Shown: positions 25,895 through 42,812 of the stretch, one piece after another | How positions within the stretch are numbered: position 1 is the stretch's first letter | Layout: each line of letters opens with the position of its first letter | Assembly: GCF_015773195.1 (NCBI RefSeq) | Contig: NZ_JADWYK010000009.1 | Span: forward strand, 1-64,000 | Direction: 5' to 3' | Length of the DNA: 64,000 bases | From: Hymenobacter guriensis | GTDB lineage: Bacteria > Bacteroidota > Bacteroidia > Cytophagales > Hymenobacteraceae | Translations under genes and position numbers: made by a program | Notes under the pieces: generated by a model | The model's input: only the letters and a program-made list of their open reading frames with translations | Databases searched by the model: none | Told to the model about the DNA's origin: nothing

Positions 25895-26233
25895 TTGTAC
25901 TCTCACTGGTTGGCGTAAGGTCGAAGTAAGCGTCCGATACGCCGGGCACAGGGTAGCCAAGCCGAGTTGATAACGCCCATTGGAAATCATTGGGGCAGAA
26001 CTTCAAAACGGGCAAAGAAAGGTTTTTTAGGCTGGTAGCGGGGCTCTGCGGGGCGGCTGTACCAGTCAAATCGACAGTCATAGAAATTGTATTCTCACTG
26101 CATTGCCCGGCTGTCAACCAGTAGCTAGATCCGGTATTCTACCAGTAGCCATACAGCAACCACCCGAGTTAGATATTTCCACTAAATCAGCGGCTGTTCC
26201 CATTAGCTGGCCGTTACCCACGAGGAAAGAAAA
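25895..26233. other. Intergenic region before the cys leader, no gene seen
   Basis: About 340 bases between the flippase stop and the cys promoter. Two minus-strand frames stay open but look random (no domain, no signal). I see no hairpin terminator with a T-run. Confidence 0.4.
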
Positions 26234-26266
26234 TTTGGAACTATAAAATTTCGGCTCGTACATTTG
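26234..26266 (+). promoter_or_regulatory. Promoter of the cys operon leader (TTTG-N21-TACATTTG)
   Basis: TTTG at 26234-26237 and TACATTTG at 26259-26266 match the Bacteroidota -33/-7 pattern with 21-base spacing. The predicted transcription start, about 26272, lies about 23 bases before the SAM-I riboswitch P1 stem. The same geometry occurs at the permease riboswitch. Confidence 0.75.
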
Positions 26267-26294
26267 TCCTACCAATTCTTTACCCCCCAAAGGA

Positions 26295-26392
26295 TTGTTT
26301 TTATACAGAGGCGTGGAGAGACAGGCTCTACGAAGCGCCGGCAACCAGCGGACCATCCGAAACGGTGCCAAGTCCTGAACATATAAAAACAA
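26295..26392 (+). promoter_or_regulatory. SAM-I (S-box) riboswitch of the sulfate-assimilation operon
   Basis: The core matches the S-box consensus: ACAGAGGCGTGGAGAGACAG, then GCTCTACGAAGCGCCGGCAA, then CC, a P3 arm, and GGTGCCAAGTCCTG near 26364-26377. P1 is a perfect 11-bp helix, TTGTTTTTATA (26295-26305) with TATAAAAACAA (26382-26392). S-box RNAs bind S-adenosylmethionine and form P1 when bound. A second copy with the same P1 precedes the permease (42654-42752). An 8-bp helix CAATTCTT/AAGGATTG (26273-26280/26290-26297), with one G-U pair, overlaps the first 3 bases of P1 and could compete with it. Confidence 0.93.
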
Positions 26393-26398
26393 CAAGCC

Positions 26399-26494
26399 GT
26401 GAACCACTTGTCCAACTTCGCCACTGCCTCCGCCACTTCCATTGCTGTACAGCATGGGTGTTGTGCTATGATGGGCATGGCGTGTTGTTGCTAG
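26399..26494 (+). CDS. Putative Cys/Met-rich leader peptide ending CCC-stop
   Basis: A 31-codon ORF from a GTG 6 bases after riboswitch P1 to TAG. The last 12 residues are GCCAMMGMACCC, so there are five Cys (two as CC, three as CCC before the stop) and three Met in that segment. The codons of the end are TGT-TGT-TGC-TAG. In the permease leader the corresponding end is TGT-TGT-TGC-TGA, at nearly the same distance. Mycobacterial polycysteine upstream ORFs are a known precedent for cysteine-responsive attenuation. The start is uncertain: TTG at 26408 and ATG at 26468 are in frame. The A-rich P1 3' strand is placed like a Bacteroidota start region. Confidence 0.6.
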   Translation: MNHLSNFATASATSIAVQHGCCAMMGMACCC

Positions 26495-26546
26495 TTCACA
26501 CCCCTCCTTTTTCTGGTTTGTGCGCTGATTTCAGCCCCCGTCAGCC

Positions 26547-26562
26547 CCGCTATGCTTAGCGG
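26547..26562 (+). promoter_or_regulatory. Hairpin CCGCTA-TGCT-TAGCGG between leader peptide and cysH
   Basis: A perfect 6-bp stem with a TGCT loop lies 52 bases after the leader stop codon and 140 bases before cysH. No T-run follows. Its loop side GCTTAGC recurs at 26569-26576 as CGGCTTAGC, which could pair alternatively. The stretch to cysH is pyrimidine-rich, compatible with Rho-dependent control. Function is inferred only. Confidence 0.4.
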
Positions 26563-26701
26563 CCGACCGGCTTAGCACAGGCCGTTTTCGGTTCTGCCGT
26601 AGCGCCCCGGCCTGCTCACGCCCGGCTGGCTTTTGCGCAGAACGATTCTCCGCCGAACTGCTGCCTTCCGCTGGCCGGTTCTCCCTCAACTTCCCGTTTG
26701 T

Positions 26702-27475
26702 ATGCCCGCAGCCCTGGCCGCGCCGGCCGTCCCGCAGCTGGACGACCTGCGCATTCAGCTTACGCCAGCCACCGCCCTGGAGCGGTTGCGCCTCGTGGCT
26801 TCTCTGTACCCCAACTCAGCGGTTTTCTCGACCTCCTTTGGCCTGGAAGACCAGATTATCAGCCACTTGATTTTCGAGTTCGACTTGCCAATTAAGGTGT
26901 TCACGCTCGATACCGGCCGCAACTTCCAGGAAACCTACGCCACCTGGAACAAGACCCTGCTGCGGTACCAAAAGCCCATTGAGGTGTATGCGCCCCGGCA
27001 GGAAAGCCTGCAGTCCTTGCTCCTCGAAAAAGGCCCCAATTCCTTCTACGAGAGTGTGGACAACCGCAAGGAGTGCTGCCACATCCGCAAAGTAGAGCCC
27101 CTGAATCGGGCATTGGCCGGGCAGCAGGCCTGGGTGACGGGCATCCGGGCCGAACAGTCGCAGAACCGCCAAACGATGGAGCCGGTGGAGTGGGACGCGC
27201 CGCACAACCTCATTAAAGTTCACCCGCTGTTCGACTGGACCTGGGAAGAGGCCGTGGCCTTCACCCAGGAGCACGGCATCCCGGTAAACACGCTGCATAA
27301 GCAAGGCTTCGTGAGCATCGGGTGCGCGCCCTGCACCCGCGCCATCAAGCCGGGCGAAGACTTCCGGGCCGGCCGCTGGTGGTGGGAAGATCTTTCGGCC
27401 AAGGAATGCGGCCTACACGCCACTGCTCACCACAACGGCCCCGATCCGGTGGTGGAGCCGGTGCCCGCCAACTAA
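26702..27475 (+). CDS. cysH: APS/PAPS reductase of the iron-sulfur (APS) type
   Basis: 257 residues from the ATG at 26702; longer in-frame starts exist but would add an Arg-rich stretch. It has the PP-loop-like SAVFSTSFGLEDQII, the iron-sulfur ligands Cys125-Cys126 (RKECCHIRK) and Cys208/Cys211 (GCAPCTRA), and the catalytic ECGLH motif near residues 235-239. Proteins with the CC...CxxC cluster reduce APS (adenosine phosphosulfate) directly to sulfite with thioredoxin; consistently, no APS kinase (CysC) is in the operon. It is the first structural gene after the SAM-I/leader-peptide region. Confidence 0.95.
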   Translation: MPAALAAPAVPQLDDLRIQLTPATALERLRLVASLYPNSAVFSTSFGLEDQIISHLIFEFDLPIKVFTLDTGRNFQETYATWNKTLLRYQKPIEVYAPRQESLQSLLLEKGPNSFYESVDNRKECCHIRKVEPLNRALAGQQAWVTGIRAEQSQNRQTMEPVEWDAPHNLIKVHPLFDWTWEEAVAFTQEHGIPVNTLHKQGFVSIGCAPCTRAIKPGEDFRAGRWWWEDLSAKECGLHATAHHNGPDPVVEPVPAN

Positions 27476-27498: not shown

Positions 27499-28410
27499 AT
27501 GAGTACCCCTTCCTTCGATTACCTCGACCGGCTGGAAGCCGAAGCCATTCACATCCTGCGGGAAGTAGCCGGCCAGTTTGAGCGCCCCGCGCTGCTGTTT
27601 TCGGGTGGCAAAGACTCCATTGTGCTCACGCGCCTGGCCGAAAAGGCCTTCCGCCCCGGCCGCTTCCCGTTTCCGCTGGTGCACGTGGATACCGGCCACA
27701 ACTTCCCCGAGGTGCTGGCTTACCGCGACGCGCTGGCCGAGCAACTGGGCGAAAAGCTGATTGTACGTAGTGTGGAGGACACCATCCGGCGCCAGCGCCT
27801 GCGTGAGCCGATGGGTAAGTACCCCAGCCGCAACCCGCTGCAGACGTACACGCTGCTGGAAACCATCGAGGAGTTTGAGTTTGATGCCTGCATCGGCGGA
27901 GCCCGGCGCGACGAGGAAAAGGCCCGCGCCAAGGAGCGCATCTTCTCGGTGCGCGACGAGTTTGGCCAGTGGGACCCCAAGCGCCAGCGTCCCGAGCTGT
28001 GGAACATCTACAACGGCCGCATTCAGAAGGGGGAAAACGTGCGCGTGTTCCCTATTTCCAACTGGACGGAGCTGGACGTGTGGCGCTACATCCAGCGCGA
28101 GAACATTGCCTTGCCCGACATCTATTTCGGCCATGAGCGTACCTGCGTGGTGCTGCCCTCGGGCCAGTTGCTGGGCCTTACCGAGCACATCCGCCTCGAC
28201 AAGGACGACGAAATCGTAACCCGGCAGGTGCGCTTCCGAACCGTGGGCGACTCCACCTGCACCGCTGCCGTGGAAAGTGACGCGGCCACGGTGGAAGACA
28301 TCATCCAGGATCTGCTGCTGGCCAAAGTAAGCGAGCGGGGCGCCACCCGCCTCGACGACAACATCTCCGAAGCCGGCATGGAAGACCGCAAGCGCAACGG
28401 GTATTTCTAA
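27499..28410 (+). CDS. cysD: Sulfate adenylyltransferase subunit 2
   Basis: 303 residues, normal length. The N-terminal PP-loop is LLFSGGKDSIVLTRLAEKAF, followed by LVHVDTGHNFPEVL, GGARRDEEKARAKERIFS (conserved binding loop), and the C-terminal LDDNISEAGMEDRKRNGYF that ends CysD proteins. With CysN it forms ATP sulfurylase, which makes APS from sulfate and ATP. It begins 23 bases after cysH. Confidence 0.97.
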   Translation: MSTPSFDYLDRLEAEAIHILREVAGQFERPALLFSGGKDSIVLTRLAEKAFRPGRFPFPLVHVDTGHNFPEVLAYRDALAEQLGEKLIVRSVEDTIRRQRLREPMGKYPSRNPLQTYTLLETIEEFEFDACIGGARRDEEKARAKERIFSVRDEFGQWDPKRQRPELWNIYNGRIQKGENVRVFPISNWTELDVWRYIQRENIALPDIYFGHERTCVVLPSGQLLGLTEHIRLDKDDEIVTRQVRFRTVGDSTCTAAVESDAATVEDIIQDLLLAKVSERGATRLDDNISEAGMEDRKRNGYF

Positions 28411-28502
28411 GCTAATGTGCGAAATGTGGCGAATGCGGGAATGTGATAAATGAGCCCCAAAGGCCACTCTGCCACACCCTCCACTTCGCCCCAAATCATT
28501 TT

Positions 28503-28531
28503 CCACATTTCTCACATTTCTCACATTAACC
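28503..28531 (+). repeat. Short direct repeat CACATTTCT upstream of cysN
   Basis: Three units of about 9 bases (CACATTTCT-like) lie right before the cysN homology begins. They encode HISHISHIN in the longer reading frame. A similar CACATT-rich stretch lies at about 51980-52013 before the next gene there, so it looks like spacer DNA rather than coding. Confidence 0.6.
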
Positions 28532-28542
28532 ACCTTCTCCAA

Positions 28543-29829
28543 GTGGACCTTCTTCGATTTATCACTTGCGGCAGCGTAGACGACGGCAAAAGCACCCTTA
28601 TCGGGCGGCTGCTGTACGATTCCGAATCCGTGTCGCTGGATGTGCTGGCGGCGCTGGAAAAGCGGCAGGCCTCTGGCGGCGTGGTAGACCTCGCCCTCCT
28701 GACCGACGGCCTGCGCGCCGAGCGGGAACAGGGTATCACCATCGACGTAGCGTATAAATACTTTACTACGCCCCGCCGCAAGTTCATCATTACCGATGCG
28801 CCGGGCCACGTGCAGTACACCCGCAACATGGTGACTGGCGCCTCCAACGCCGACCTGGCTATTGTGCTGGTAGATGCGCGCCAGGGCGTGATTGAGCAAA
28901 CGCGTCGCCACACCCTTATTGCCGCGTTGCTGGGCATCCGTCATTTTGTGCTGGCCGTGAACAAGATGGACCTGGTAGACTACGACCAGGCCGTGTTCGA
29001 CCAAATTGCCATCGACTACGCCGCCCTCACCAACCACTTCCACCTGCCGGCCGCCACGGCCATTCCGCTCAGCGCCCTCAACGGCGACAACGTGGTGACG
29101 CGCTCCAAACACCTGCCCTGGTACACTGGTCCCAGCCTGCTCGAACACCTGGAAAGCGTGCCCAGCGCCGTGGAAACTACTGCTGCCCCGCGCTTTCAGG
29201 TGCAGTACGTCATTCGGCCCCAGACGCCTGAGTTGCCCGACTACCGCGGCTACGCCGGCCAGATTCTGAGTGGGCAGTACCGCCGCGGCGAGCGGGTGCG
29301 GGTGCTGCCCTCCGGTCTGGAATCTGAAATCGAAGCCATTGAAGTAAATCAGGAGGAAGTGGAATCGGCCGCCGCGCCCCAAGCCGTAGTTATCCGCCTG
29401 CGCGACGACCTAGACGTAAGTCGCGGTGACGCCCTGGTTCCCGTCGCGGCCGAAGCTACAGTGACGCGGGAGTTGGAAGCTACACTTTGCTGGATGAGCG
29501 AGCAGCCGTTGTGGCCCGGCCGCAAGCTGCTCGTGCAGCACCACACCACCCTCACGAAAGCTTCCGTGTCGGCTATTCTCTACAAGGTGAACGTGCACAC
29601 GTTTGCCCGGGTATCGGCCGAGCAGGCCCAGCTCAACGACATCGTGCGGGTGCGGCTGAAAACCGCCCAGCCCCTGGCCGTGGACCTCTACCAGGAAAAC
29701 CGCGCCACCGGCTCTTTCATTCTGGTGGATGAAGTGAGTGGCGACACCCTGGCTGCTGGCCTGGTAGAAGCGTCCAACTCCGAGTACTTCACCGCCCCGG
29801 TTCAGCCCCCGGTTGCCTTTTCGATTTAA
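28543..29829 (+). CDS. cysN: Sulfate adenylyltransferase subunit 1 (GTPase)
   Basis: 428 residues from a GTG at 28543. The GTPase motifs are FITCGSVDDGKSTLIGRLLYDS (G1), ITDAPGHVQYTRNM (G3), NKMDLVDYD (G4) and ALNGDNV (G5-like); an EF-Tu-like domain 2 and 3 follow. It stimulates the sulfurylase CysD by GTP hydrolysis. An ATG at 28450 would add 31 residues made of a CACATTTCT repeat (HISHISHINH), which is not part of the family, so I prefer GTG, giving VDLLRFITCG. No CysC kinase domain is fused to the end, consistent with the APS-type cysH. Confidence 0.93.
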   Translation: MDLLRFITCGSVDDGKSTLIGRLLYDSESVSLDVLAALEKRQASGGVVDLALLTDGLRAEREQGITIDVAYKYFTTPRRKFIITDAPGHVQYTRNMVTGASNADLAIVLVDARQGVIEQTRRHTLIAALLGIRHFVLAVNKMDLVDYDQAVFDQIAIDYAALTNHFHLPAATAIPLSALNGDNVVTRSKHLPWYTGPSLLEHLESVPSAVETTAAPRFQVQYVIRPQTPELPDYRGYAGQILSGQYRRGERVRVLPSGLESEIEAIEVNQEEVESAAAPQAVVIRLRDDLDVSRGDALVPVAAEATVTRELEATLCWMSEQPLWPGRKLLVQHHTTLTKASVSAILYKVNVHTFARVSAEQAQLNDIVRVRLKTAQPLAVDLYQENRATGSFILVDEVSGDTLAAGLVEASNSEYFTAPVQPPVAFSI

Positions 29830-29883: not shown

Positions 29884-30666
29884 ATGAAAACGCCCCGTCT
29901 GACCGTCCTTGGTGCCGGCCCCGGCGACCCGGAGCTGCTCACGCTCAAAGGGGCGCGGGTGCTGGGTGAAGCCGACGTAATTCTTTACGATGCCCTGGCC
30001 AACCGGGAGCTGCTGCAACATGCCCGGCCCGAAGCTGTGCTGGTATCGGTGGGCAAGCGGCGCGGCATGCGCAGTCACTCGCAGGACGAAATCAACGCCC
30101 TGATTGTAGAGTATGCACTCAGCTATGGCCACGTGGTTCGGCTAAAGGGCGGCGACCCATTCGTATTCGGGCGGGGGCGAGAGGAAATGCTTTACGCCGA
30201 AGCCCACGGCCTGCGCACTGACTACGTGCCCGGCATCAGCAGTGCGGTGGCGGCGGCGGGCAGCGTGGGCATTCCCGTCACGCACCGGGGCGCCAGTGAA
30301 GGATTCCGGGTGATTACGGCCACCACGGCCACCGGCGAGCTGGCTGCCAGCGTGGCCGAAGCCGCCCGCTCCCGCGCTACCACCGTGATACTGATGGGTC
30401 TGGGTGAGCTGCCGAGCATTGTGCGACTATTCTGCGCGCAGGGCCAAGCCGAGACGCCAGCGGCCATCATTCAGAATGGCACCCTGCCCACCGCCCGGCT
30501 GGTAACAGGCACCGTGGCCGAGCTGCCGGCCCGGGCGCTGGAAGCCGGCATCGGGGCCCCGGCCATTATCATCATCGGAGAGGTGACGCGGCTGGCTACG
30601 CCCGCAGTGCTGACGCAGGCTTTACCGACCGTTTTTGCCGACGCCTCTTACGCCGAGGTGGCCTGA
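29884..30666 (+). CDS. cobA: Uroporphyrinogen-III C-methyltransferase (SUMT)
   Basis: 260 residues. Typical SUMT motifs: VLGAGPGDPELLTLKGARVL (SAM-binding), VSVGKRRGMRSHSQDEIN, RLKGGDPFVFGRGREEM, YVPGISSAVAAAGSVGIPVTHRG, and VVSGAP-like PAIIIIGEV. It methylates uroporphyrinogen III twice to precorrin-2, the first step to siroheme for CysI. The second part (dehydrogenase/ferrochelatase) is in the fusion gene at 38303. It is in the cys operon between cysN and cysJ. Confidence 0.93.
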   Translation: MKTPRLTVLGAGPGDPELLTLKGARVLGEADVILYDALANRELLQHARPEAVLVSVGKRRGMRSHSQDEINALIVEYALSYGHVVRLKGGDPFVFGRGREEMLYAEAHGLRTDYVPGISSAVAAAGSVGIPVTHRGASEGFRVITATTATGELAASVAEAARSRATTVILMGLGELPSIVRLFCAQGQAETPAAIIQNGTLPTARLVTGTVAELPARALEAGIGAPAIIIIGEVTRLATPAVLTQALPTVFADASYAEVA

Positions 30667-30736: not shown

Positions 30737-32578
30737 ATGTCCATCACCTCAACTTTCACGCTGCCCCTGGGTCTGGATGACGCCAGCCTGCAGCAGTTCA
30801 CGGGCGGCCTCACCGAACAGCAGCTGCTGTGGCTGAGCGGGTATTTCTACGGTCGGTCGGCAGGCGCAGCAGTGGCCCCGGCCGCTCAGTCTGCTACCTC
30901 GGTGGCCGCAGCGCCAGCCGCGGGTTCACCCCACTTGACCATTCTCTTCGGTTCCCAGACCGGCAACAGCAAGAAGGCTGCGGGCCTGGTGGCCGAAGCG
31001 GCCCGGCAGCGCGGCCTGGCCGTGGCTGTGCGCGACATGAACGACTACCCAACCAAAGAGCTAAAAAATGAGCAGCAGCTGTTGGTGGTAGTGAGCACTC
31101 AGGGTGAGGGCGACCCGCCCATTGCTGCCGAGGAGCTGCACCAGTTCCTGCTCAGCAACCGCGCGCCCAAGCTGCCCAACCTGCGCTACGCCGTGCTGGC
31201 CCTCGGCGACAAAAGCTACCTGCAGTTCTGCCAGACGGGCTTCGAGTTCGACCAGCGCCTAGCCGAGCTGGGTGGCAAGCGCCTGCTGGAGCGCGTGGAC
31301 TGCGACGTGGAGTTTGAGGCCGAAGCCCGCCGCTGGGCCGAGCAGGTGCTGGCACTGGTCGCTCAGCCGGCTCCGGCTGCCACCCCAGTTGCCACTGCGC
31401 AACCTTTCGTGCAGGTAAACCAGCTGGTGGCGGCGGGTGAGGCCGAGGTGGAAGAAAAGGTGGAATACACAAGCCACAACCCTTTCGCCGCGGAGCTGCT
31501 GGAGAAGATTCAGCTGAACGGCCGCGGCTCTACCAAGGAAACTTACCACCTGGAATTCTCCCTAGCGGGCTCCGGCATTTCCTACGAAGCCGGCGACGCG
31601 CTGATGGTGCAGCCCGTGAACCAGGAGGCCTTGGTGCAAGAGGTAATTCAGGCAGCGCGCCTGAATGCCACGGCCCCGGTAAAGCTCAACGACACGGAAT
31701 TTGACTTGCACACGGCCCTGGCCGAGAAGCTGGAGCTGTCGGTGCTTACGCGCGACGTGCTGGAGCGCTACGCCGCCGTGGCCCCGCAGCACCCCAAGCT
31801 GCGCGACATCATCACCAATAAAGCCCAGCTGCCCGACTACCTCTACGGCCGCGACGTAGCCGACCTGCTCACGGAGTTTCCGGTAGAACTATCGGGCCAG
31901 CAACTGGCGGCAGTGCTGCGGCCTTTGCCCGCCCGGGCCTATTCCATTGCCAGCTCCCTGCTGGCTCACCCTGAGGAAGTGCACCTCACGGTGGGCGCTG
32001 TGCGCTACGAAACCAACGGCCGCCGCAAGCACGGCGCCTGCTCAGCCTACCAGGCCGATGGGCTGACTGTGGGCGACACGGCCCGGGTGTGGATTGACCG
32101 CAACGAGTACTTCAAGCTGCCCCAGGATGCGGCTACTGATATCATCATGGTAGGGGCGGGTACGGGTGTAGCCCCGTTCCGGGCCTTTGTAGAAGAGCGG
32201 GCCGAAACCGGCGCGGCCGGCCGCAACTGGCTGGTGTTCGGCAACCCCCACTTCACCACCGATTTCCTGTACCAGACCGAGTGGCAGCAGCACTTGAAAA
32301 AAGGCACGCTGGACCGTCTCGACGTGGCCTTCTCCCGCGACCAGCAGCAGAAAGTGTATATCCAGCACCGCCTGCTTGAGCAAAGTGCCCGCCTCTACGA
32401 CCAGCTCGAAAACGGAGCCTACTTCTACGTGTGCGGCGACAAAAACCGCATGGCTGCCGACGTGCGCCAGGCTTTGCTTGCCGTCATTCAGCAGCAAAGC
32501 GGGAAAGATGCTGACTACGCTGCCGACTACATCAAGCAGCTGCGCAAGCAACGCCGCTACCTGGAAGACGTGTACTAG
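30737..32578 (+). CDS. cysJ: Assimilatory sulfite reductase flavoprotein (CysJ-like)
   Basis: 613 residues. An N-terminal LTEQQLLWLSGYFYGRS segment of CysJ proteins precedes a flavodoxin-like FMN domain (ILFGSQTGNSKKAAGL, VVSTQGEGDPP, LGDKSYLQFC) and the FAD/NADPH module (RAYSIASSLLAHPEEVHLTV, GACSAYQADGL, MVGAGTGVAPFRAFVEERA, LVFGNPH, YFYVCGDKNRMAADV), and it ends with RYLEDVY. It passes electrons from NADPH to the CysI hemoprotein. It is followed by a short ORF and then a TonB receptor. Confidence 0.95.
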   Translation: MSITSTFTLPLGLDDASLQQFTGGLTEQQLLWLSGYFYGRSAGAAVAPAAQSATSVAAAPAAGSPHLTILFGSQTGNSKKAAGLVAEAARQRGLAVAVRDMNDYPTKELKNEQQLLVVVSTQGEGDPPIAAEELHQFLLSNRAPKLPNLRYAVLALGDKSYLQFCQTGFEFDQRLAELGGKRLLERVDCDVEFEAEARRWAEQVLALVAQPAPAATPVATAQPFVQVNQLVAAGEAEVEEKVEYTSHNPFAAELLEKIQLNGRGSTKETYHLEFSLAGSGISYEAGDALMVQPVNQEALVQEVIQAARLNATAPVKLNDTEFDLHTALAEKLELSVLTRDVLERYAAVAPQHPKLRDIITNKAQLPDYLYGRDVADLLTEFPVELSGQQLAAVLRPLPARAYSIASSLLAHPEEVHLTVGAVRYETNGRRKHGACSAYQADGLTVGDTARVWIDRNEYFKLPQDAATDIIMVGAGTGVAPFRAFVEERAETGAAGRNWLVFGNPHFTTDFLYQTEWQQHLKKGTLDRLDVAFSRDQQQKVYIQHRLLEQSARLYDQLENGAYFYVCGDKNRMAADVRQALLAVIQQQSGKDADYAADYIKQLRKQRRYLEDVY

Positions 32579-32666: not shown

Positions 32667-32720
32667 AAGCCGCCGTGTGCCTGACCCGAGCCGCTTGCCG
32701 CTACGCCCCCAAGGCACCCT

Positions 32721-32736
32721 GGAAGCCCCGGCTTCC
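32721..32736 (+). promoter_or_regulatory. Hairpin GGAAGC-CCCG-GCTTCC before the TonB receptor gene
   Basis: A 6-bp perfect stem with a CCCG tetraloop, followed by CTCCTTTCC rather than a T-run. It may act as a weak attenuator with the short ORF upstream. Confidence 0.35.
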
Positions 32737-32806
32737 CTCCTTTCCTGCTGGCTCCCACCAGCCCAGCCTACTCCCTTCTCTTTCTCCTCCAAACGCCTTT
32801 TCTGTG

Positions 32807-35695
32807 ATGAAGAAGTACTACGCTTCTTTCTGGATTCTCCTGATCTTATTATTCGCCAGTCTGATGGCCGCTCAGGCCCAGGACCAATTAATTTCCATCA
32901 GCGGTACCGTCCGCGAAAAAGACACGCAACAGCCCCTGCCCGGCGTGAGCGTGAACGTGAAAGGTGGCTTGATGAGCGCCCAGAGCGACGCCAGCGGCAA
33001 GTTTGTGCTCCAGGCCCGCCTGAGATTTCCGTTTACCATCGTCTTCAACATCATTGGCTACGAGCCCCGAGAGCTGGAAATTGCCAGCGGCAGCCAGCCC
33101 ATTGCCGTGCAGCTGGAATCGAAGCCGGTGCTGGTGAACGAGGTGGTCGTGTCGGCCTCCCGGGTAGAGGAAAGCCGCCTGAAGTCGCCAGTAGCCATTG
33201 AAAAGCTCGACATCCGCGCCATCAAGGAAACGCCCGCACCCAGCTTCTACGATGCCCTGGAAAACGTGAAGGGCGTGCAGATGACCACCAGCTCGCTCAC
33301 CTTCAAAGTGCCTAATACCCGCGGCTTCAACATCCCCAACAACTTCCGCTTTATGCAGCTGGTGGATGGGGTAGACATGCAGGCGGCTACGCTGGGCGTG
33401 CCCTTGGGCAACGCCATCGGGCCCACGGAGCTGGACATTGCCTCCGTCGAAATCACGCCCGGTGCCGCCTCGGCCCTCTACGGCATGAACGCCATCAACG
33501 GCATGGCCAACCTCACCACCAAAAGCCCTTTCACCTACCAGGGCCTGAGCGTGTACCAGAAAGTGGGCGTCAACCACGTAGATGGCAAGGACCGGGACCC
33601 CAGCGCCCTCACCGAAACGGCCGTGCGCTACGCCCAGGCCATTGGCAGCCGCTTTGCCTTCAAGCTCAACGGCTCCTACTTGCGCGGCACCGACTGGCTG
33701 GCCGACACCCAGATTGACCAGAACCCGCAAAGCCTGAACTCGGCCAACCCCCGCTTCCCGGAGTTGAGCGGGGCTAACAACCCCGCCGCCGACCTCTGGA
33801 ACCGCTACGGCGACGACCGCAGCGGCAATGTGGCCATTCCCATCACCTACCAGGGCAAGACGGAAACCTTCAACGTGCGTCGCACGGGCTACTACGAGAA
33901 GGATCTGATTTCGCCCACCGTGCGCAACCTCAAGTTCGACGGCGGCCTGTTCTACAAATTCACCGAGAAGCTGGAGCTGAGCTACGGCTACCGCTACGGG
34001 CTGATGGACGGCATTTTCCAGCGCGGCAACAAGATTCAGCTCAAGGACGTGACCGTGCAGAACCACAAGCTGGAGCTGCGCGGCGCCGACTACTACGTGC
34101 GCAGCTACGTGCTGGTGGAAAACACCGGCAACTCCTACAACCTGAACCCGCTGGCCCTGAACCTGGATTTGCAGAACGGCGCCACGGCCCTCACCACCGG
34201 CTCCGGCCCCAAAACCAGCTGGGCCGATAAATTCCAGGCCGAGCTGCAAAGCCAGGTGAATGCCGGCATTGACCTCGCCACCGCCATGCAGGCAGCCCGC
34301 GCCGCAGCCGATGCCGGGCGGGCCCAGCCCGGCACCGCCGCCTTCGAGCAGCTGAAAAACACCATCACGGGCATCAACAACTGGGACAGCGGGGTGAACG
34401 TGCCCGGCGCCCCTGCCACCGGCGGGGCCGCCCTCTGGCAGCGCAGCCGCACCTACCACAACGAGGCGCAGTGGAACCTGGGCCAGCGCATCAAGTTTGC
34501 CGATGTGGTAATGGGCGCCGACGCCCGCATCTACGAGGTGATTCCCGACGGCAACAACTTTGTGGACTTCTCCAAGTCCCTGGCCGACCGCAACACCCCC
34601 GGCGGCCAGAACCTGTACTACAAAAAGTACGGCGCCTTTGCTCAGGCCACCAAGCTGCTGTTCCAGGACCGCCTCAAGCTGAACGCCTCCCTGCGCGTGG
34701 ACTACAACCCCGAGTTCAATCCCAAGCTGAACCCGCGGGTGGCCGCCGTGTACACCATTGCCCAGCGCCATAACCTGCGCGCCTCCTTCCAGAACGGCTG
34801 GCGCTTCCCGGCGTTGTTTGAAGCCCTGTCTTTTGTGAATAATGGCAACGTGCGCCGCGTAGGCGGTCTGGCCCGCGTGAACGAAGGCCTCGGCTTCCTC
34901 GAAAACTCCTACACGCTGACTTCGCTCGACAACTTCACGGCCGCCGTGAACAAGGATGTGGCCGCCGGCCTGGCCCGCAACGACGCCGCCCTCAAAAACC
35001 GGGACGTGCTGCAGGTAGCCAACCTGCCCACCGAGGAGCCCGAGCACATCAATGCCTTCGAGGTAGGCTACAAGAGCGTGCTGCTCGACAACAGCTTGGC
35101 CCTGGACATAGACGCCTACTACAACGAGTACTCCGGCTTCCTGGGGCAGGTGGAAGTGGCCGTGCCGAAAACCGGGCCGGTGCTGACGGACGCATCCGTA
35201 CTGGACATGCTTTCCCGCTCTAAGCAGGACCGCTACCGCGTGTACACCAACGCCCGCAACACTTACCGCAGCTATGGCTCGGCCCTGGGCATCACCTATA
35301 ACTTCTACCAGAAGTACACGGTGGCCGGCAACGTGAACTACAACAACATTGCCGCCAACGAAGAGAAGGATGTGTTCATCACCGGCTTCAACACGCCCAA
35401 GTGGACCACGAACCTAAGCTTCGGTAACCGCGAAGTTGTGCGCAACGTGGGCTTCAATGTGGTGTGGCGGCGCCAGGATGCTTTCTACTGGGAAAGCCAG
35501 CTGGCCAACGGCCAGATTCCGGCCTACTCCACCGTGGATGCCCAGGTGAACGTACGCATTCCGGCTCTGAAATCGACCATCAAGCTAGGTGGCACCAACC
35601 TGCTCAACAACCGCTACATCCAGTACGCGGCCGGCCCGACCATCGGCGGCCTGTACTACGTGGCCCTCACCTTCGATAACAACATCATCCGCTAA
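32807..35695 (+). CDS. TonB-dependent outer-membrane receptor in the cys operon
   Basis: 962 residues from the ATG at 32807, which gives a signal peptide (MKKYYASFWILLILLFASLMAAQA). An N-terminal CarboxypepD_reg-like domain (ISGTVREKDTQQPLPGVSVNVKGG) is followed by a plug domain (VVVSASRVEESRLKSPVAIEKL, GFNIPNNFRFMQLVDGVDMQAAT) and a 22-strand-type barrel ending in aromatic-rich YVALTFDNNIIR. There is no SusD partner next to it. Its place in a sulfate-assimilation operon, between cysJ and cysI, suggests uptake of a sulfur source across the outer membrane. The ligand is not known. Confidence 0.88.
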   Translation: MKKYYASFWILLILLFASLMAAQAQDQLISISGTVREKDTQQPLPGVSVNVKGGLMSAQSDASGKFVLQARLRFPFTIVFNIIGYEPRELEIASGSQPIAVQLESKPVLVNEVVVSASRVEESRLKSPVAIEKLDIRAIKETPAPSFYDALENVKGVQMTTSSLTFKVPNTRGFNIPNNFRFMQLVDGVDMQAATLGVPLGNAIGPTELDIASVEITPGAASALYGMNAINGMANLTTKSPFTYQGLSVYQKVGVNHVDGKDRDPSALTETAVRYAQAIGSRFAFKLNGSYLRGTDWLADTQIDQNPQSLNSANPRFPELSGANNPAADLWNRYGDDRSGNVAIPITYQGKTETFNVRRTGYYEKDLISPTVRNLKFDGGLFYKFTEKLELSYGYRYGLMDGIFQRGNKIQLKDVTVQNHKLELRGADYYVRSYVLVENTGNSYNLNPLALNLDLQNGATALTTGSGPKTSWADKFQAELQSQVNAGIDLATAMQAARAAADAGRAQPGTAAFEQLKNTITGINNWDSGVNVPGAPATGGAALWQRSRTYHNEAQWNLGQRIKFADVVMGADARIYEVIPDGNNFVDFSKSLADRNTPGGQNLYYKKYGAFAQATKLLFQDRLKLNASLRVDYNPEFNPKLNPRVAAVYTIAQRHNLRASFQNGWRFPALFEALSFVNNGNVRRVGGLARVNEGLGFLENSYTLTSLDNFTAAVNKDVAAGLARNDAALKNRDVLQVANLPTEEPEHINAFEVGYKSVLLDNSLALDIDAYYNEYSGFLGQVEVAVPKTGPVLTDASVLDMLSRSKQDRYRVYTNARNTYRSYGSALGITYNFYQKYTVAGNVNYNNIAANEEKDVFITGFNTPKWTTNLSFGNREVVRNVGFNVVWRRQDAFYWESQLANGQIPAYSTVDAQVNVRIPALKSTIKLGGTNLLNNRYIQYAAGPTIGGLYYVALTFDNNIIR

Positions 35696-35706: not shown

Positions 35707-36480
35707 ATGCCACGCGCCTTTTTTGTTCTACTAATTCTATTGCTCGCGGCCGCGCCGCTGCGGGCACAGAAGCAGTATGTGCGGGAGCAGCAGACCTGGC
35801 TGGGAGTGTTCAACCAAACGCGGTTTTCGCAGCGCTGGGGCTCCTGGACCGACCTGCACCTGCGCCTACACGACCACTTCGTGCGGGAGAAATTTCAGGC
35901 CCTGGCCCGCGTCGGCCTCACCTATTACCTCACGGATGACGTGCGCCTGACCGGCGGCTACGCCTACGTGTACCATTACCCCGATGGGGCCCGCACCGTG
36001 GGCCAGCCCGAGCACCGACCCTGGCAGCAGGTGCAGTGGTTTACCAAGTTTCCCAAAGCCCGCTTGATGCAGTGGGTGCGGCTGGAAGAGCGGTTTCGGC
36101 GCACTATTCAAAACAATGAGCGCACCGACGACTTCGATTTCAACTACCGCACCCGCTACAACGTGGCCTTGTTCCTGCCGCTCACCAAACGCGGCTTCGA
36201 GCCGGGCGGGGTACAGTTCCTGCTTAACAACGAGGTGATGATGAACTTCGGCAAGGAAATCCGCTACAACTACTTCGACCAGAACCGCTTCTTCGCTGGG
36301 CTGGCCTACCAGGTAAGCAAGCACGGGCAGCTGCAGGGCGGCTACATGCACCTGTTTCAGCAGCTGCCGGCGGGCAGCACCTACCGCAATCAACACACCA
36401 TCCGGCTGTTCTACTTCCACAATTTCGACTTGCGGCCTACGCCCCCGCCCGTCCCCACTCCTAGTCCCTCACAACCGTAA
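35707..36480 (+). CDS. DUF2490 family outer-membrane-like protein
   Basis: 257 residues with a signal peptide (MPRAFFVLLILLLAAAPLRAQ). The family signature is an N-terminal W-x-G-(V/A)-F-N-Q-like stretch (QTWLGVFNQTRFSQRWGSW) and RTRYNVALFLPL with many aromatic beta strands (FFAGLAYQVSKHGQLQGGYMHLF). DUF2490 proteins are predicted outer-membrane beta-barrels of unknown function. Only 11 bases separate it from the TonB receptor, and its stop overlaps the cysI start (TAATG), so it is transcribed with the sulfur genes. Confidence 0.8.
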   Translation: MPRAFFVLLILLLAAAPLRAQKQYVREQQTWLGVFNQTRFSQRWGSWTDLHLRLHDHFVREKFQALARVGLTYYLTDDVRLTGGYAYVYHYPDGARTVGQPEHRPWQQVQWFTKFPKARLMQWVRLEERFRRTIQNNERTDDFDFNYRTRYNVALFLPLTKRGFEPGGVQFLLNNEVMMNFGKEIRYNYFDQNRFFAGLAYQVSKHGQLQGGYMHLFQQLPAGSTYRNQHTIRLFYFHNFDLRPTPPPVPTPSPSQP

Positions 36481-38195
36481 TGGCTGATACCCTCAAGCTC
36501 TCCGAAGTTGAACACGTGAAGGATGCCAGCAACTTTTTGCGTGGCACCCTGGTCGGGAGCGTGCAGAACCCAATTACCGGCGCCCTGTATCCCGACGATA
36601 CCCACCTTATCAAGTTCCACGGCTCCTACCAGCAAACGGACCGCGACCTGGACTCGGAGCGGAAACGCCAGAAGCTGGAGCCGCTCTACTCCTTCATGAT
36701 TCGAGTGCGGGTGCCGGGCGGGGTGGCTACGGCCGACCAGTGGCTGCGCATGGACGAGCTGGCCGACGCCTACGGCAACCACACGCTCAAGCTCACCACG
36801 CGGCAGGCTTTCCAGCTGCACGGGGTCCTCAAGCGCGACCTGAAGTCGACCATTCAGGGCTTCAACGACGTGCTACTGGACAGCATTGCCGGCTGCGGCG
36901 ACGTAAACCGCAACGTGATGTTCAACCCCAATCCGCACCTCTCGCGGGTGCACGAGCAGGTGTACGAAGTCACGAAAGCTATTAGTACCCACCTCACGCC
37001 GCGCACCTCGGCTTACTGGGAGCTGTGGCTCGATGGAGAATCGAAGTACAGCAGTGTATTAAATGATGGCGAGGGTGACTTTGAGCCGATTTACGGCAAA
37101 ACCTACCTGCCCCGCAAGTTCAAGATTGCGCTGGCCGTGCCGCCTTACAACGACACCGACATCTTCGCCAACGACCTGGGGCTGATTGCCATTGAGAAAA
37201 ATGGCAAGCTGCTCGGCTTCAACGTAGCGGTAGGTGGCGGCATGGGCATGACGTTTGGCATGCCCGACACCTACCCGCGCCTGGCCGATATCATCGGCTT
37301 TGTGCCCGCCAACAAAGTGGTGGAGGTCTGCGAGCAGGTGGTAACCATTCAGCGTGACTGGGGCAACCGCGAAAACCGCAAGTTCTCCCGCCTAAAGTAT
37401 ACCCTGGACCGCGTGGGCCTCGACGTGTTCCGGGACGAGCTGAACCGCCGCCTGGGCTTCGACCTGGAACCCGCGCGCCCCTACACCTTCCGCTCCTCCG
37501 GCGACGCCTTTGGGTGGAGTACCGGCCCCAATGGCGCCCGCCACCTCACGCTGTTTGTAGAAGGCGGCCGCGTGCAGGACACCGAAGTCAGCCGCCTGAA
37601 AACGGCCCTGCGCGAAATTGCCCGCTTCCATACCGGCGACTTCCGCCTCACCGGCAACCAAAACCTGATGCTGGCCAACGTGGCACCCCAGCACGAGTTA
37701 GTGGTGCAGGCCATTCTGGCCGAGCACGGCGTGCTGGCGGAAGCCAACGACGTGCACACGGGCCTGCGCCGCGGGGCTTTAGCTTGCGTAGCCTTGAACA
37801 CCTGCTCGTTGGCTTTTGCCGAGGCCGAGCGTTATCTTCCCCAGCTTTTAGCTAGATTAGAGGAAGTAATTCGCGCGCAGGGTCTGGCCCAGGATGATAT
37901 TCTGCTGCGGATGACGGGCTGTCCCAATGGCTGCGCCCGCCCCTACCTGGGCGAAATCGGGTTGGTGGGCCGCGCCGTGGGGCGCTACAATCTGTACCTC
38001 GGCGCCGCTTTCAACGGGGAGCGGATGAACAAGCTGTACCGGGAAATGGTGGACGAAGACGGCATTGTGCGGGAGCTCACGCCCCTGCTCGCCGACTACG
38101 CCCAGAACCGCCAGCCCCAGGAGCGGTTCGGGGATTTTGTAGTCCGCCAGGGCTATGTAAAGCCTACCCTCAGCGGCCTCACCTTTCACGAGTAA
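36480..38195 (+). CDS. cysI: Assimilatory sulfite reductase hemoprotein subunit
   Basis: 571 residues, normal length for CysI. Both siroheme/4Fe-4S ligand pairs are present: C-x5-C in ACVALNTCSLAFAEAERYLP and C-x3-C in MTGCPNGCARPYLGEIGLVG. Other hallmarks: LKLTTRQAFQLHGVLKRDL, GCGDVNRNVM and VAVGGGMGMTFG. It reduces sulfite to sulfide with electrons from CysJ. The start codon shares a base with the DUF2490 stop. A dispersed palindrome lies right after the stop. Confidence 0.97.
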   Translation: MADTLKLSEVEHVKDASNFLRGTLVGSVQNPITGALYPDDTHLIKFHGSYQQTDRDLDSERKRQKLEPLYSFMIRVRVPGGVATADQWLRMDELADAYGNHTLKLTTRQAFQLHGVLKRDLKSTIQGFNDVLLDSIAGCGDVNRNVMFNPNPHLSRVHEQVYEVTKAISTHLTPRTSAYWELWLDGESKYSSVLNDGEGDFEPIYGKTYLPRKFKIALAVPPYNDTDIFANDLGLIAIEKNGKLLGFNVAVGGGMGMTFGMPDTYPRLADIIGFVPANKVVEVCEQVVTIQRDWGNRENRKFSRLKYTLDRVGLDVFRDELNRRLGFDLEPARPYTFRSSGDAFGWSTGPNGARHLTLFVEGGRVQDTEVSRLKTALREIARFHTGDFRLTGNQNLMLANVAPQHELVVQAILAEHGVLAEANDVHTGLRRGALACVALNTCSLAFAEAERYLPQLLARLEEVIRAQGLAQDDILLRMTGCPNGCARPYLGEIGLVGRAVGRYNLYLGAAFNGERMNKLYREMVDEDGIVRELTPLLADYAQNRQPQERFGDFVVRQGYVKPTLSGLTFHE

Positions 38196-38249: not shown

Positions 38250-38302
38250 GCTTACAACCTCGCTTAGGGTTGTCCTCTTTTCTCTCCTCCGACCACAACC
38301 AA

Positions 38303-40891: not shown

Positions 40892-42367
40892 TCACTTCAG
40901 CTGCTTGCTTAGCCCGCTCGTTGCGCCGCTTGCTTGCAGCCCCAGCTTGCTGTGCTTGCGGCCGTATCCGAAGTAGATAGCCAGCCCGATGGCCAGCCAC
41001 ACAGCCAGACGTAACCACGTTTCCCAAGGTAAGGACAACATCATGACCAAGCAGGTGACGATACCCAGAATGGGCACCAGCGGCACCAGCGGCGTGCGGA
41101 AGCCGCGGAGCGCGTCGGGCTCTTTTTTGCGCATGATGAGCACGCCCACGCACACCATCACGAAGGCCAGCAGCGTACCGATGCTCGTCATCTCACCCAC
41201 TACCGAAATCGGCACAAAGCCCGCGAACAAGGCGATAAACAAGCCCAGCAATAGGTTCGACTGCAGGGGCGTGCGGAACCGCTCGTGGATGCGGGCGAAA
41301 ACCGGGGGCAACAGTCCGTCCTTGGCCATAGAGAAAAACACCCGGCTCTGACCCAGCAAATCCACCAAAATCACAGAGGTGTAGCCAATGATGATGGCCA
41401 GAATAACCGCCGAGGAAAGCCAGGCGTAGGGCGTTTTTTCGATGGCAATAGCCACCGGTGCGGCGCTGTTCTTGAACTCGGTGTAGTTGGCTAGGCCCGT
41501 CATCACGTGGCCGAACAGCACGAACAGCACGGTGCAGATCAGCAGGGAGCCGATAATACCGATGGGCATGTTGCGCTGCGGGTTCTTGGTTTCCTGGGCC
41601 ATGGTGGCCACAATATCGAAGCCGATGAACACGAAGAACACCACGCCGGCCCCGCGCAGAATGCCGCTCCAGCCAAACTCCCCGAACACGCCGGTGTTCT
41701 GCGGGATGTAAGGTTGGTAATTGGCCGGATCGATGTACTGCCAGCCCAGGGCAATGAACACCAGCACCACGGCCACCTTCAGCGTAACCACCAGCGCGTT
41801 AAACCAGGCCGAGCCCGAGGTGCCCCGAATAATGATAAGCGTAATGGCCAGCACAATGAGCATGGCGGGCACGTTCACGAAGCCGTGCACGGTGCTGCCA
41901 TCGGCCAGCGCGGCCGTTTCAAACGGCGACATCACCAGCTGAGGCGGCAGATGAACGCCGTATTTGCTCAGGAATTTGAGTAGGTACTGGGACCAACTGA
42001 TGGCCACCGTAGCGGCGCCAACCGAGTATTCCAGCACCAAATCCCAGCCGATAATCCAGGCGAACAACTCGCCCATGGTGGCGTAGGCGTAGGTATAAGC
42101 CGAGCCGGCTACCGGCACCATGGCGGCAAACTCGGCGTAGCACAGGGCGGAAAAAGCGCAGCCCACGGCCGCCACCACGAAGGAAAGCGTCACGGCCGGA
42201 CCAGCGTTGTTGGCCGCCGCAATACCTGTTAGCGAAAACAAACCCGCACCGATGATGACACCGATGCCGATAGCAATAAGGTTGAAACCGTTCAGGGTAC
42301 GTTTGAGCGTGCCCGCGCCGGTTTCGGCGGCTTCTAGCCGCAAGAGTTCCAGGGACTTTTTAAGCAT
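40892..42367 (-). CDS. APC family amino acid permease under a SAM-I riboswitch
   Basis: 491 residues from the ATG at 42367, with 12 predicted helices and the APC N-terminal signature LNGFNLIAIGIGVIIGAGLFSLTGIAAA, then PVAGSAYTYAYATMGELFAWIIGWDL. It is of the cationic-type amino-acid permease size (YfnA/CAT-like). A SAM-I riboswitch and a CCC-terminated leader ORF lie upstream (minus strand, 42543-42752), with about 175 bases from the leader stop to the start. By that link methionine, cysteine or a related sulfur compound is the most likely substrate; the sequence alone does not give it. A small GAAGC-CTGA-GCTTC hairpin (42382-42395) lies 15 bases before the ATG. Confidence 0.88.
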   Translation of the reverse strand: MLKKSLELLRLEAAETGAGTLKRTLNGFNLIAIGIGVIIGAGLFSLTGIAAANNAGPAVTLSFVVAAVGCAFSALCYAEFAAMVPVAGSAYTYAYATMGELFAWIIGWDLVLEYSVGAATVAISWSQYLLKFLSKYGVHLPPQLVMSPFETAALADGSTVHGFVNVPAMLIVLAITLIIIRGTSGSAWFNALVVTLKVAVVLVFIALGWQYIDPANYQPYIPQNTGVFGEFGWSGILRGAGVVFFVFIGFDIVATMAQETKNPQRNMPIGIIGSLLICTVLFVLFGHVMTGLANYTEFKNSAAPVAIAIEKTPYAWLSSAVILAIIIGYTSVILVDLLGQSRVFFSMAKDGLLPPVFARIHERFRTPLQSNLLLGLFIALFAGFVPISVVGEMTSIGTLLAFVMVCVGVLIMRKKEPDALRGFRTPLVPLVPILGIVTCLVMMLSLPWETWLRLAVWLAIGLAIYFGYGRKHSKLGLQASGATSGLSKQLK

Positions 42368-42542: not shown

Positions 42543-42647
42543 TCAGCAACAACACCACGTGCTACAACAGGCCTCAGCAGCCCCATATGGACACACGGAG
42601 GCAGCAGCAAAAACAGGTAGGGCAGTAAAGCAGGGCGGAAAGTCCAC
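42543..42647 (-). CDS. Putative Cys-rich leader peptide ending CCC-stop, before the permease
   Basis: A 34-codon ORF from a GTG lying exactly 6 bases after P1 of the riboswitch (42654), to TGA. Seven of its residues are Cys, and the end is EACCSTWCCC. The codons are TGT-TGT-TGC-TGA, as in the cys-operon leader (TGT-TGT-TGC-TAG). Both leaders share the pattern CC-x(3-6)-CCC-stop and GCC-GTG at the start. The start codon is not certain: a second GTG at 42596 gives 17 codons with the same end. A second frame here is also rich in TGC, so the composition must be considered. Confidence 0.6.
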   Translation of the reverse strand: MDFPPCFTALPVFAAASVCPYGAAEACCSTWCCC

Positions 42648-42653
42648 GGCAAC

Positions 42654-42752
42654 TTGTTTTTATATGGTCAGGAGTTGGCACCGTTCCGCGGGGTGCGGGT
42701 GGTTGCCGGCGCGTCGTCGAGCCTGTCTCTCGGCGCCTCTGTATAAAAACAA
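42654..42752 (-). promoter_or_regulatory. SAM-I (S-box) riboswitch before the APC permease
   Basis: On the minus strand it reads P1 TTGTTTTTATA (42742-42752), ACAGAGGCGCCGAGAGACAG, GCTC, then GCGCCGGCAACC, a C-rich P3 arm, GGTGCCAACTCCTG, and P1' TATAAAAACAA (42654-42664). P1 and most of the core are the same as in the cys-operon copy, with P3 diverged. It should bind SAM and switch the permease on when SAM is low. Confidence 0.92.
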
Positions 42753-42780: not shown

Positions 42781-42812
42781 CAAAGGTAGCCCCGGATTCC
42801 GGGGCCCGCAAA
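42781..42812 (-). promoter_or_regulatory. Promoter of the permease leader (TTTG-N20-TACCTTTG)
   Basis: On the minus strand, TTTG (42809-42812) and TACCTTTG (42781-42788) are separated by 20 bases. The predicted start of transcription is about 42775, about 23 bases before P1, as in the cys-operon copy. Confidence 0.75.

Follow-up and report, generated by a model that had tools for sequence, protein, structure and literature searches.

SAM-I riboswitches followed by cysteine-run leader reading frames in Hymenobacter guriensis and other Bacteroidota: a candidate multi-input sulfur sensor

Two leaders in the window

The stretch of DNA considered here (the window, 64,000 nucleotides (nt) of Hymenobacter guriensis contig NZ_JADWYK010000009.1, assembly GCF_015773195.1) carries a sulfate assimilation operon whose first gene, cysH, is preceded by a leader containing, in this order, a promoter, an S-adenosylmethionine (SAM)-I or S-box riboswitch and a short open reading frame (ORF) that ends in a run of cysteine codons (Table 1). 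An earlier reading made from the letters alone, called the sequence-only reading below, had named these three elements and interpreted the ORF as a Cys-sensing leader peptide; all three were recovered here. The promoter is of the Bacteroidota type, its -7 element TACATTTG matching the consensus TAHHTTTG (PMC6847099; publications are cited by their PMC accession), and no sigma-70-type match was found in the cysH leader. The window contains two SAM-I matches, both of which extend over the whole aptamer (model 1-108) and exceed the RF00162 gathering score of 44.4. The leader ORF starts 9 nt 3′ of the cysH-leader aptamer and ends CCAMMGMACCC-stop, so that a Cys pair and three Met lie near the final three Cys, as the sequence-only reading had it, and 207 nt separate its stop from the start of cysH. 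This ORF is proposed to encode a leader peptide that would respond to Cys and Met. Two opposite-strand ORFs, 26114-26455 and 26269-26478, have no Pfam match and were judged spurious.

Table 1. Features of the two leaders and of the genes behind them, in window positions.
Feature	Position	Strand	Remarks
Bacteroidota-type promoter	26234..26266	+	TTTG 26234-26237, 21-nt spacer, -7 element TACATTTG 26259-26266
SAM-I (S-box) aptamer	26298..26389	+	RF00162, 73.2 bits, E 3.1e-15, model 1-108
P1 strands of this aptamer	26298-26305; 26382-26389	+	UUUUUAUA; UAUAAAAA
Proposed leader-peptide initiation region	26382..26401	+	P1 3′ strand, 9-nt linker, GTG start
Leader ORF	26399..26494	+	31 codons, GTG start, TAG stop; VNHLSNFATASATSIAVQHGCCAMMGMACCC-TAG
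Possible RNA hairpin within the ORF	26449..26464	+	ACAGCA-UGGG-UGUUGU, pairing read from sequence; 3′ arm = Cys codons 21-22
Post-stop hairpin	26547..26562	+	CCGCUA-UGCU-UAGCGG, without U run; read from sequence
Weak terminator-like stem	26568..26584	+	6 pairs, then TTTTCGG; the one such site in the ORF-cysH interval
cysH, first gene of the sulfate assimilation operon	26702..27475	+	PF01507; ATG start 26702
cysD	27499-28410	+	
cysN	28450-29829	+	
Uroporphyrinogen-III methyltransferase	29884-30666	+	
Flavoprotein reductase	30737-32578	+	
TonB receptor	32675-35695	+	
DUF2490 protein	35707-36480	+	
NIR/SIR reductase	36480-38195	+	
TauE/siroheme-synthase-domain ORF	38270-39814	+	NAD_binding_7, Sirohm_synth_M, sulfite exporter TauE domains
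Amino-acid permease behind the second leader	40892..42367	-	PF13520/PF00324
Second leader ORF	42543..42647	-	GTG start 9 nt after P1; VDFPPCFTALPVFAAASVCPYGAAEACCSTWCCC-TGA
Second SAM-I riboswitch	42657..42749	-	RF00162, 69.3 bits, E 4.1e-14
-7 element of the second leader	42781..42788	-	TACCTTTG

The second leader of the window lies on the opposite strand, upstream of an amino-acid permease gene, and its ORF ends ACCSTWCCC-stop, a Cys run without Met. The -7 element lies 39 nt before P1, the helix that closes the aptamer, in both leaders. The whole genome has five SAM-I matches, three of which carry a Cys-run ORF, the third of these preceding a gene of the MetY cluster; a SAM-I of the same genome without such an ORF (L003) precedes a homocysteine methyltransferase gene (PF02574).

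Distribution of the tandem arrangement

For comparison between genomes, SAM-I loci were divided by the 3′ end of P1 into class B, ending TATAAA or TATAAG, and class A, comprising the rest, which are mostly GATAAG-like; by this rule L005, from the genome of H. guriensis itself, falls in class A despite its Cys run. A Cys-run ORF was defined as one that starts no more than 30 nt from P1 and has at least three Cys among its last nine residues. The order sample comprised 68 loci (39 of class B and 29 of class A), namely 28 of 29 new loci returned and 40 further loci taken in rank order; none was selected for an ORF, and rows of the genus Hymenobacter and some others were skipped. A locus on an incomplete contig (L037) was dropped before the order, genus and phylum counts. 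In this sample a Cys-run ORF follows 24 of the 39 class B riboswitches and 3 of the 29 of class A (Fisher p 1.7e-5), and dinucleotide shuffles of the class B stretches yield one in 10 of 3900 cases against the 24 of 39 real ones (p 1e-44). Within the genus, 15 of 20 further loci carry a Cys-run ORF, a count that is not unbiased because the loci were picked at a length of about 90-95 nt, which is linked to the TATAAA type.

The arrangement was also sought with a frame-blind DNA pattern that specified some of the aptamer core, TATAAA and three consecutive TGY triplets, with frame, start and stop left free. At least 119 stretches match, and all 119 of the matches listed have their first TGY run in the reading frame set by the leader start codon. 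In 94 of these listed matches that start codon is the first ATG to follow P1; in the other 25, of the Hymenobacter type, it is the first GTG. Where the P1 strand reads TATAAAAA, GTG was taken as the start, and a TTG precedes this GTG in 17 of the 25 pattern loci. Among 80 pattern loci listed are members of Hymenobacter, Pedobacter, Mucilaginibacter, Pontibacter, Nafulsella, Cesiribacter, Thermoflexibacter and Pararhodonellum, several metagenome-assembled genomes (MAGs) of Flavobacteriales, and others. The tandem set comprises 166 loci in all, with 111 distinct peptides; the sequence-only reading would have been given up had no CCC-stop ORFs been found behind homologous S-boxes, and these loci provide them. 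In 80 of 109 distinct loci a -7 element occurs in the 100 nt preceding P1, compared with 8 on the opposite strand and a mean of 4.7 in shuffles. The tandem of SAM-I and Cys-run ORF is confirmed to be real and to extend beyond the window. The tandem also occurs on a contig labelled Candidatus Kuenenia, of another phylum (L210), where the peptide nearly equals that of a Flavobacteriales MAG (L197); this case is probably a binning error.

Start site, codon content and alternative readings

The tandem leaders are likely to be multi-input sulfur sensors, in which SAM would gate translation of the leader peptide and the peptide would in turn sense charged tRNA-Cys and tRNA-Met. The recurrent order of predicted promoter, SAM-I, in-frame Cys-run ORF and sulfur gene is accompanied by a narrow spacing between P1 and the start codon, which lies 5-12 nt after P1 in 107 of the 111 distinct loci (9 nt in 42, 7 nt in 30 and 8 nt in 15), so that the 3′ strand of P1 lies in the initiation region of the ORF. 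An ATG ORF of 15-60 codons starting 4-15 nt after P1 is found in 35 of the 39 class B loci and 5 of the 29 class A loci of the order sample, and is therefore commoner in class B than the Cys run itself. Eight class B loci (L046, L049, L052, L063, L070, L081, L091 and L093) have the start-proximal ORF without a Cys run, and all eight precede genes resembling MetY or MetX; an ORF of this kind may be a platform of its own.

The initiation region is rich in A. In 82 loci with an ATG start, A occupies position -3 in 60%, -6 in 72%, -11 in 66%, -12 in 78%, -13 in 52% and -14 in 73%, the far stretch (-11 to -14) being the P1 3′ strand; in Flavobacterium johnsoniae, A at -3, -6, -12 and -13 accompanies higher initiation (PMC6847099). 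In the GTG set A is common at -10 to -14, but -3 is G. P1 is also weak in class B, with a median duplex energy of -2.5 kcal/mol (66 loci) compared with -6.0 kcal/mol in class A (145 loci), L037 and L135 having been dropped before these counts. Because the A-rich 3′ strand adjoins the start codon and P1 is weak, SAM that stabilises P1 would be expected to conceal some of the initiation region.

A less likely alternative is that the leader contains two independent modules, the peptide attenuating the operon while the SAM-I acts otherwise, for example through Rho or RNA decay, without gating the ORF. Cys-run leader ORFs without a SAM match do exist. When five Cys codons followed by TAA or TAG were sought in 118 order genomes and 148 phylum genomes, 47 loci were retrieved; of the 30 in the order set, 13 are ATG ORFs with a length of 20 residues or more, and a SAM-I lies upstream of 12 of these 13 (11 by a GGTGCYA motif within 330 nt and L369 by Rfam; several are already in the main counts). 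No Rfam SAM match, at E up to 0.05, was found for L363 of the order set or for L400, L397 and L407 of the phylum set. L400 (stop at 1518) lies before a gene for a sulfate-binding protein (NF008022) and L397 before a PhyH gene, and, judged by resemblance, L407 precedes a gene like the PhyH gene of L397 and L363 a TonB-like gene. Because these four leaders lack such a match, the Cys-run peptide module seems able to stand alone in Bacteroidota, where it may be a general Cys sensor. In the tandem loci, however, independence of the two modules would account neither for the narrow range of distances between P1 and the start codon nor for the retention of an ATG ORF by more TATAAA-type riboswitches than have Cys runs, and the weakness of P1 also argues against it.

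Sensing of tRNA charging agrees with the codon content of the ORFs. Counted from the stop in the distinct peptides, Cys occupies position -1 in 71%, -3 in 92% and -4 in 78%, and the Cys codons of the tails comprise 351 TGT and 209 TGC. In a comparison of 35 independent pairs, 34 of 212 Cys codons and 346 of 1066 other codons were changed; Cys codons show fewer non-synonymous changes (23/212, other codons 261/1066, p 5e-6), and synonymous change is similar in the two (11/212 and 85/1066, p 0.20). Of the non-Cys residues within 12 positions of the stop, 114 of 750 are Met (15%), compared with 19 of 2329 (0.8%) in the rest of the peptide (p 6e-53); the figures are 60 of 508 and 15 of 1562 when the Mucilaginibacter and Pedobacter types are left out; the enrichment of ATG beside the Cys run is confined to the reading frame.

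The presence of Met in the tail depends on the gene that follows. Tail Met is found in 52 of 66 leaders before MetY genes, 5 of 6 before MetX, 5 of 6 before CysH, 5 of 6 before ATP-grasp genes and 1 of 3 before NIR/SIR, and in 3 of 19 before permease genes; the other named genes together (68/87) differ from the permeases with p 5e-7, and within the GTG-start set, which is one lineage, the corresponding figures are 9 of 10 and 3 of 19 (p 2e-4). Sensing of charged tRNAs would explain this dependence, for which no other simple reason is known. The first genes of 163 loci fall into a MetY cluster (99), amino-acid permeases (20), CysH (15), RimK-like ATP-grasp genes (11), MetX-like genes (10), NIR/SIR reductases (3) and five others (two TM_HPP genes, one of the Na+/H+ antiporter type, a pyridine-nucleotide oxidoreductase and a TonB receptor). 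Clusters were named from one representative each, that of MetY scoring over the cut-off of TIGR01326 and that of the MetX-like genes matching TIGR01392 best, below its cut-off. The leaders thus have the coding features expected of amino-acid leader attenuators: a short ORF with repeated codons for an amino acid of the pathway, placed before a gene of that pathway. Because the Cys run is in frame, non-synonymous Cys changes are fewer and 147 of the 163 first genes are MetY, MetX, CysH, NIR/SIR or amino-acid permease genes, the Cys-sensing interpretation of the sequence-only reading is supported as far as comparison of sequences goes. Two features go beyond it, namely the enrichment of Met codons beside the Cys run and the start of the ORF at a place where P1 could hide it.

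The RimK-like ATP-grasp genes behind 11 Cys-run leaders (for example L181, 3572-4765, and its cluster) form an observation of their own; their place behind such leaders suggests that the product is a thiol or sulfur compound. In the window, the genes of the cysH operon were annotated by Pfam and NCBIfam, and the later ones probably belong to the operon, to judge from their order and strand. A TonB-dependent receptor and a DUF2490 protein gene are placed inside this run of sulfate genes, with the flavoprotein reductase on one side and the NIR/SIR reductase on the other, and the last ORF, in which siroheme-synthase and TauE domains occur together, is a possible fusion.

Cys runs are able to bind metals or form disulfides, and the peptide could accordingly be imagined as a nascent-chain sensor of thiols or metals, that is, an arrest peptide for redox or metal state rather than a sensor of charged tRNA. 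This is improbable: although this chemistry speaks for it, and although CC follows QHG in 10 of 10 leaders of one Hymenobacter-type group (QHG being the selection criterion for that group), the length and context of the run vary, the changes in the rest of the peptide are mostly non-synonymous (261 of 346, a count made without a neutrality test), the run, as the extreme C-terminal part of the peptide, is still inside the ribosome tunnel, and whether Met codons accompany it depends on the gene. A small functional Cys-rich protein that is co-transcribed by happenstance would fit the presence of the ORF in many genomes and is more improbable still, because the ORF keeps its place behind the riboswitch whichever gene follows, the changes outside the Cys run are again mostly non-synonymous, and none of the 4 leader peptides checked has an NCBIfam match. 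A chance, untranslated TGY repeat behind a riboswitch has a negligible probability and, for the group as a whole, is refuted by the shuffle counts and the frame counts given above, even though such repeats are common in the genome (237 matches to TGYTGYTGYTRR compared with 51 for the reversed pattern).

The last regulatory step and related systems

Regulation of the tandem leaders would start with P1. At low SAM it would open, and its A-rich 3′ strand would serve the initiation region of the leader peptide, whereas binding of SAM would keep P1 closed and conceal that region. When charged tRNA-Cys or tRNA-Met is scarce, a translating ribosome would pause at the Cys and Met codons by the stop, where it would cover or remodel the RNA structures around the stop codon, so that the operon would be expressed.

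The structures that a paused ribosome could act on differ between groups of leaders. A strict scan covered 90 class A loci and 80 of the 111 distinct peptides, the latter between -40 and +110 nt of the ORF stop. It found strong intrinsic terminators in 37 of the 90 class A loci (shuffles 5/180) and no enrichment in Cys-run leaders (5/80, shuffles 5/160; the two of the window are not among them). A strong intrinsic terminator is thus improbable as the shared last step, and, because such terminators are not enriched, Rho-dependent termination is the favoured guess. The class A locus L021 has a strong terminator after SAM-I whose loop holds a copy of the P1 5′ strand (ACTTATC); it appears to be a classical S-box switch, found in the same genus as the unusual kind.

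The Pedobacter-type leaders (n = 22) share four helices with 96% of cells paired. None of 500 shuffles reaches the covariation score or the number of cells with changes on both sides (20), the signal coming mostly from helix 4. The Mucilaginibacter-type leaders (n = 45, L186 dropped) have a stem a few nt after the stop with 86% pairing, compared with 12-62% for slid partners. Over 60 of the 111 distinct peptides, the best local hairpin between +35 and +95 is stronger than in mononucleotide shuffles (-7.7 against -5.0, p 6e-7), with a weak effect of the same kind between 0 and +60 (p 0.027). The stretch that forms such a post-stop hairpin would be covered by a ribosome arrested on the final Cys codons. 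The post-stop hairpin of the cysH leader recurs with identical letters in L108, and hairpins of different letters occupy a similar place in six other related leaders. Between +10 and +29 after the stop, ATG leaders are 71-74% pyrimidine; in the GTG set C is about equal to G. Inside the ORF, TACAGCATGGGTGTTGT (26449-26464) is invariant, without synonymous change, in 10 of 10 GTG loci, all selected for encoding QHG, while the final Cys run varies among the same leaders; this identity next to a varying Cys run suggests a constraint at the RNA level.

Several of the results weigh against SAM gating, tRNA sensing or a Rho-dependent end. Of the TATAAA-type riboswitches of the order sample, 15 of 39 have no Cys run, and none of the 90 SAM-I of the phylum sample (30 returned loci and 60 picked from the list, all among the best-scoring; 87 of class A) has a Cys-run ORF. 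The trait is therefore restricted; class B, which scores lower, may be under-sampled in the phylum sample. The cysH leader of the window itself has G at -3 and C at -6, and its GTG is mostly paired in the predicted free leader (unpaired 0.03-0.07). An anti-P1 sequence as in transcriptional S-boxes was rejected as a candidate (1 of 66, shuffles 1.75, L037 and L135 dropped), in a test that is insensitive because class A, too, has only 7 of 145. Complete repression by SAM during Cys shortage would be odd unless the gating is partial. The synonymous conservation at Cys codons that the sequence-only reading had proposed to look for did not appear, the synonymous fraction of the changes being no higher there (11/34) than elsewhere (85/346, p 0.31). 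For the Pedobacter leaders, two more measures give values not clearly above the shuffles (46/500 and 86/500), there is no covariation in helices 2-3, and in helix 1, around the Cys codons, a single pair is changed on both sides; covariation likewise does not lift the Mucilaginibacter post-stop hairpin above shuffles (58/500). The pyrimidine-rich stretch, which could mark a rut site, is confined to the ATG set. Finally, a looser scan of 26200-26760 finds three terminator-like sites (shuffle mean 0.8), two of which overlap the Cys/Met codons (26458-26484); the third, the stem at 26568-26584, makes a weak intrinsic terminator possible in this leader, where Rho would then not be needed.

For a wider claim the chances seem about even. 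In it, the expression platform of a SAM-I subtype would be the start site of a leader peptide, SAM, Cys and Met would be read in one leader, and a relay from riboswitch to ribosome would recur in Bacteroidota with its codon mix tuned to the gene, Cys plus Met before biosynthesis genes and Cys alone before the permease. SAM is itself a derivative of methionine. If the claim is true, a phylum naturally without Shine-Dalgarno sequences builds a translation-controlling riboswitch by giving an A-rich P1 strand a second role within the initiation region, and the codons of the peptide would reveal the purpose of a downstream transporter or enzyme. The arrangement also opens to experiment the way in which one RNA combines tRNA charging with a riboswitch signal.

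The sequence-only reading knew of no tandem of SAM-I with a Cys-run ORF, and searches aimed at it in the open-access literature, which leaves subscription journals mostly uncovered, likewise yielded no such tandem, no Cys-run leader peptide of Bacteroidota and no comparable arrangement of P1 and start codon. For this reason the combination of a SAM-I and a Cys/Met leader, its occurrence across Bacteroidota and the placing of the start codon close to P1 are regarded as new, whereas Cys-run leaders (in Actinobacteria), a riboswitch combined with a leader peptide (mgtA) and a SAM-I with a tRNA input (Xanthomonas) are already known. Mycobacterial Cys-run leader ORFs are reportedly leaderless, to go by the title of a study; in the cysH leader a 92-nt aptamer separates the predicted promoter from the ORF. 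Among short ORFs on which ribosomes stall, tnaC senses tryptophan.

The Actinobacterial leaders have a short ORF before cys operons with Cys codons near its stop and no conserved terminator hairpin, and Rho-dependent termination, as in tna, was suggested for them (PMC1262725). The present leaders resemble them in the short ORF, the Cys run near the stop and the position before sulfur genes; they differ in the upstream SAM-I (the available part of that source mentions no riboswitch), in the additional Met codons and in the phylum. An upstream ORF with consecutive Cys codons is also known in uORFC-8-2, upstream of cysS in Rhodobacterales, which has been read as ribosome-mediated attenuation (PMC8632094); it has two tandem Cys codons and a U run fitting an intrinsic terminator, and no riboswitch is described. 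Stalling on the short ORFs of tnaC (PMC5021804) and of toiL, which senses antibiotics (PMC12121999), is linked to Rho-dependent termination in E. coli, and these ORFs share the stalling feature but are described there without an aptamer. The SAM-I of Xanthomonas campestris also binds uncharged initiator tRNA directly, which frees a Shine-Dalgarno sequence (PMC7270179), and is thus similar in having a second, tRNA-linked input; the terms leader peptide and ORF are absent from the text of that source, whereas here the ribosome would read the charging. In architecture the present leaders also resemble the Salmonella mgtA leader, in which a riboswitch and the ORF of an amino-acid-responsive, proline-rich peptide, MgtL, occur together and the last step is Rho-dependent (PMC5021804); the present leaders differ from it in ligand, peptide and phylum, and their ORF comes after the aptamer, its start codon adjoining P1.

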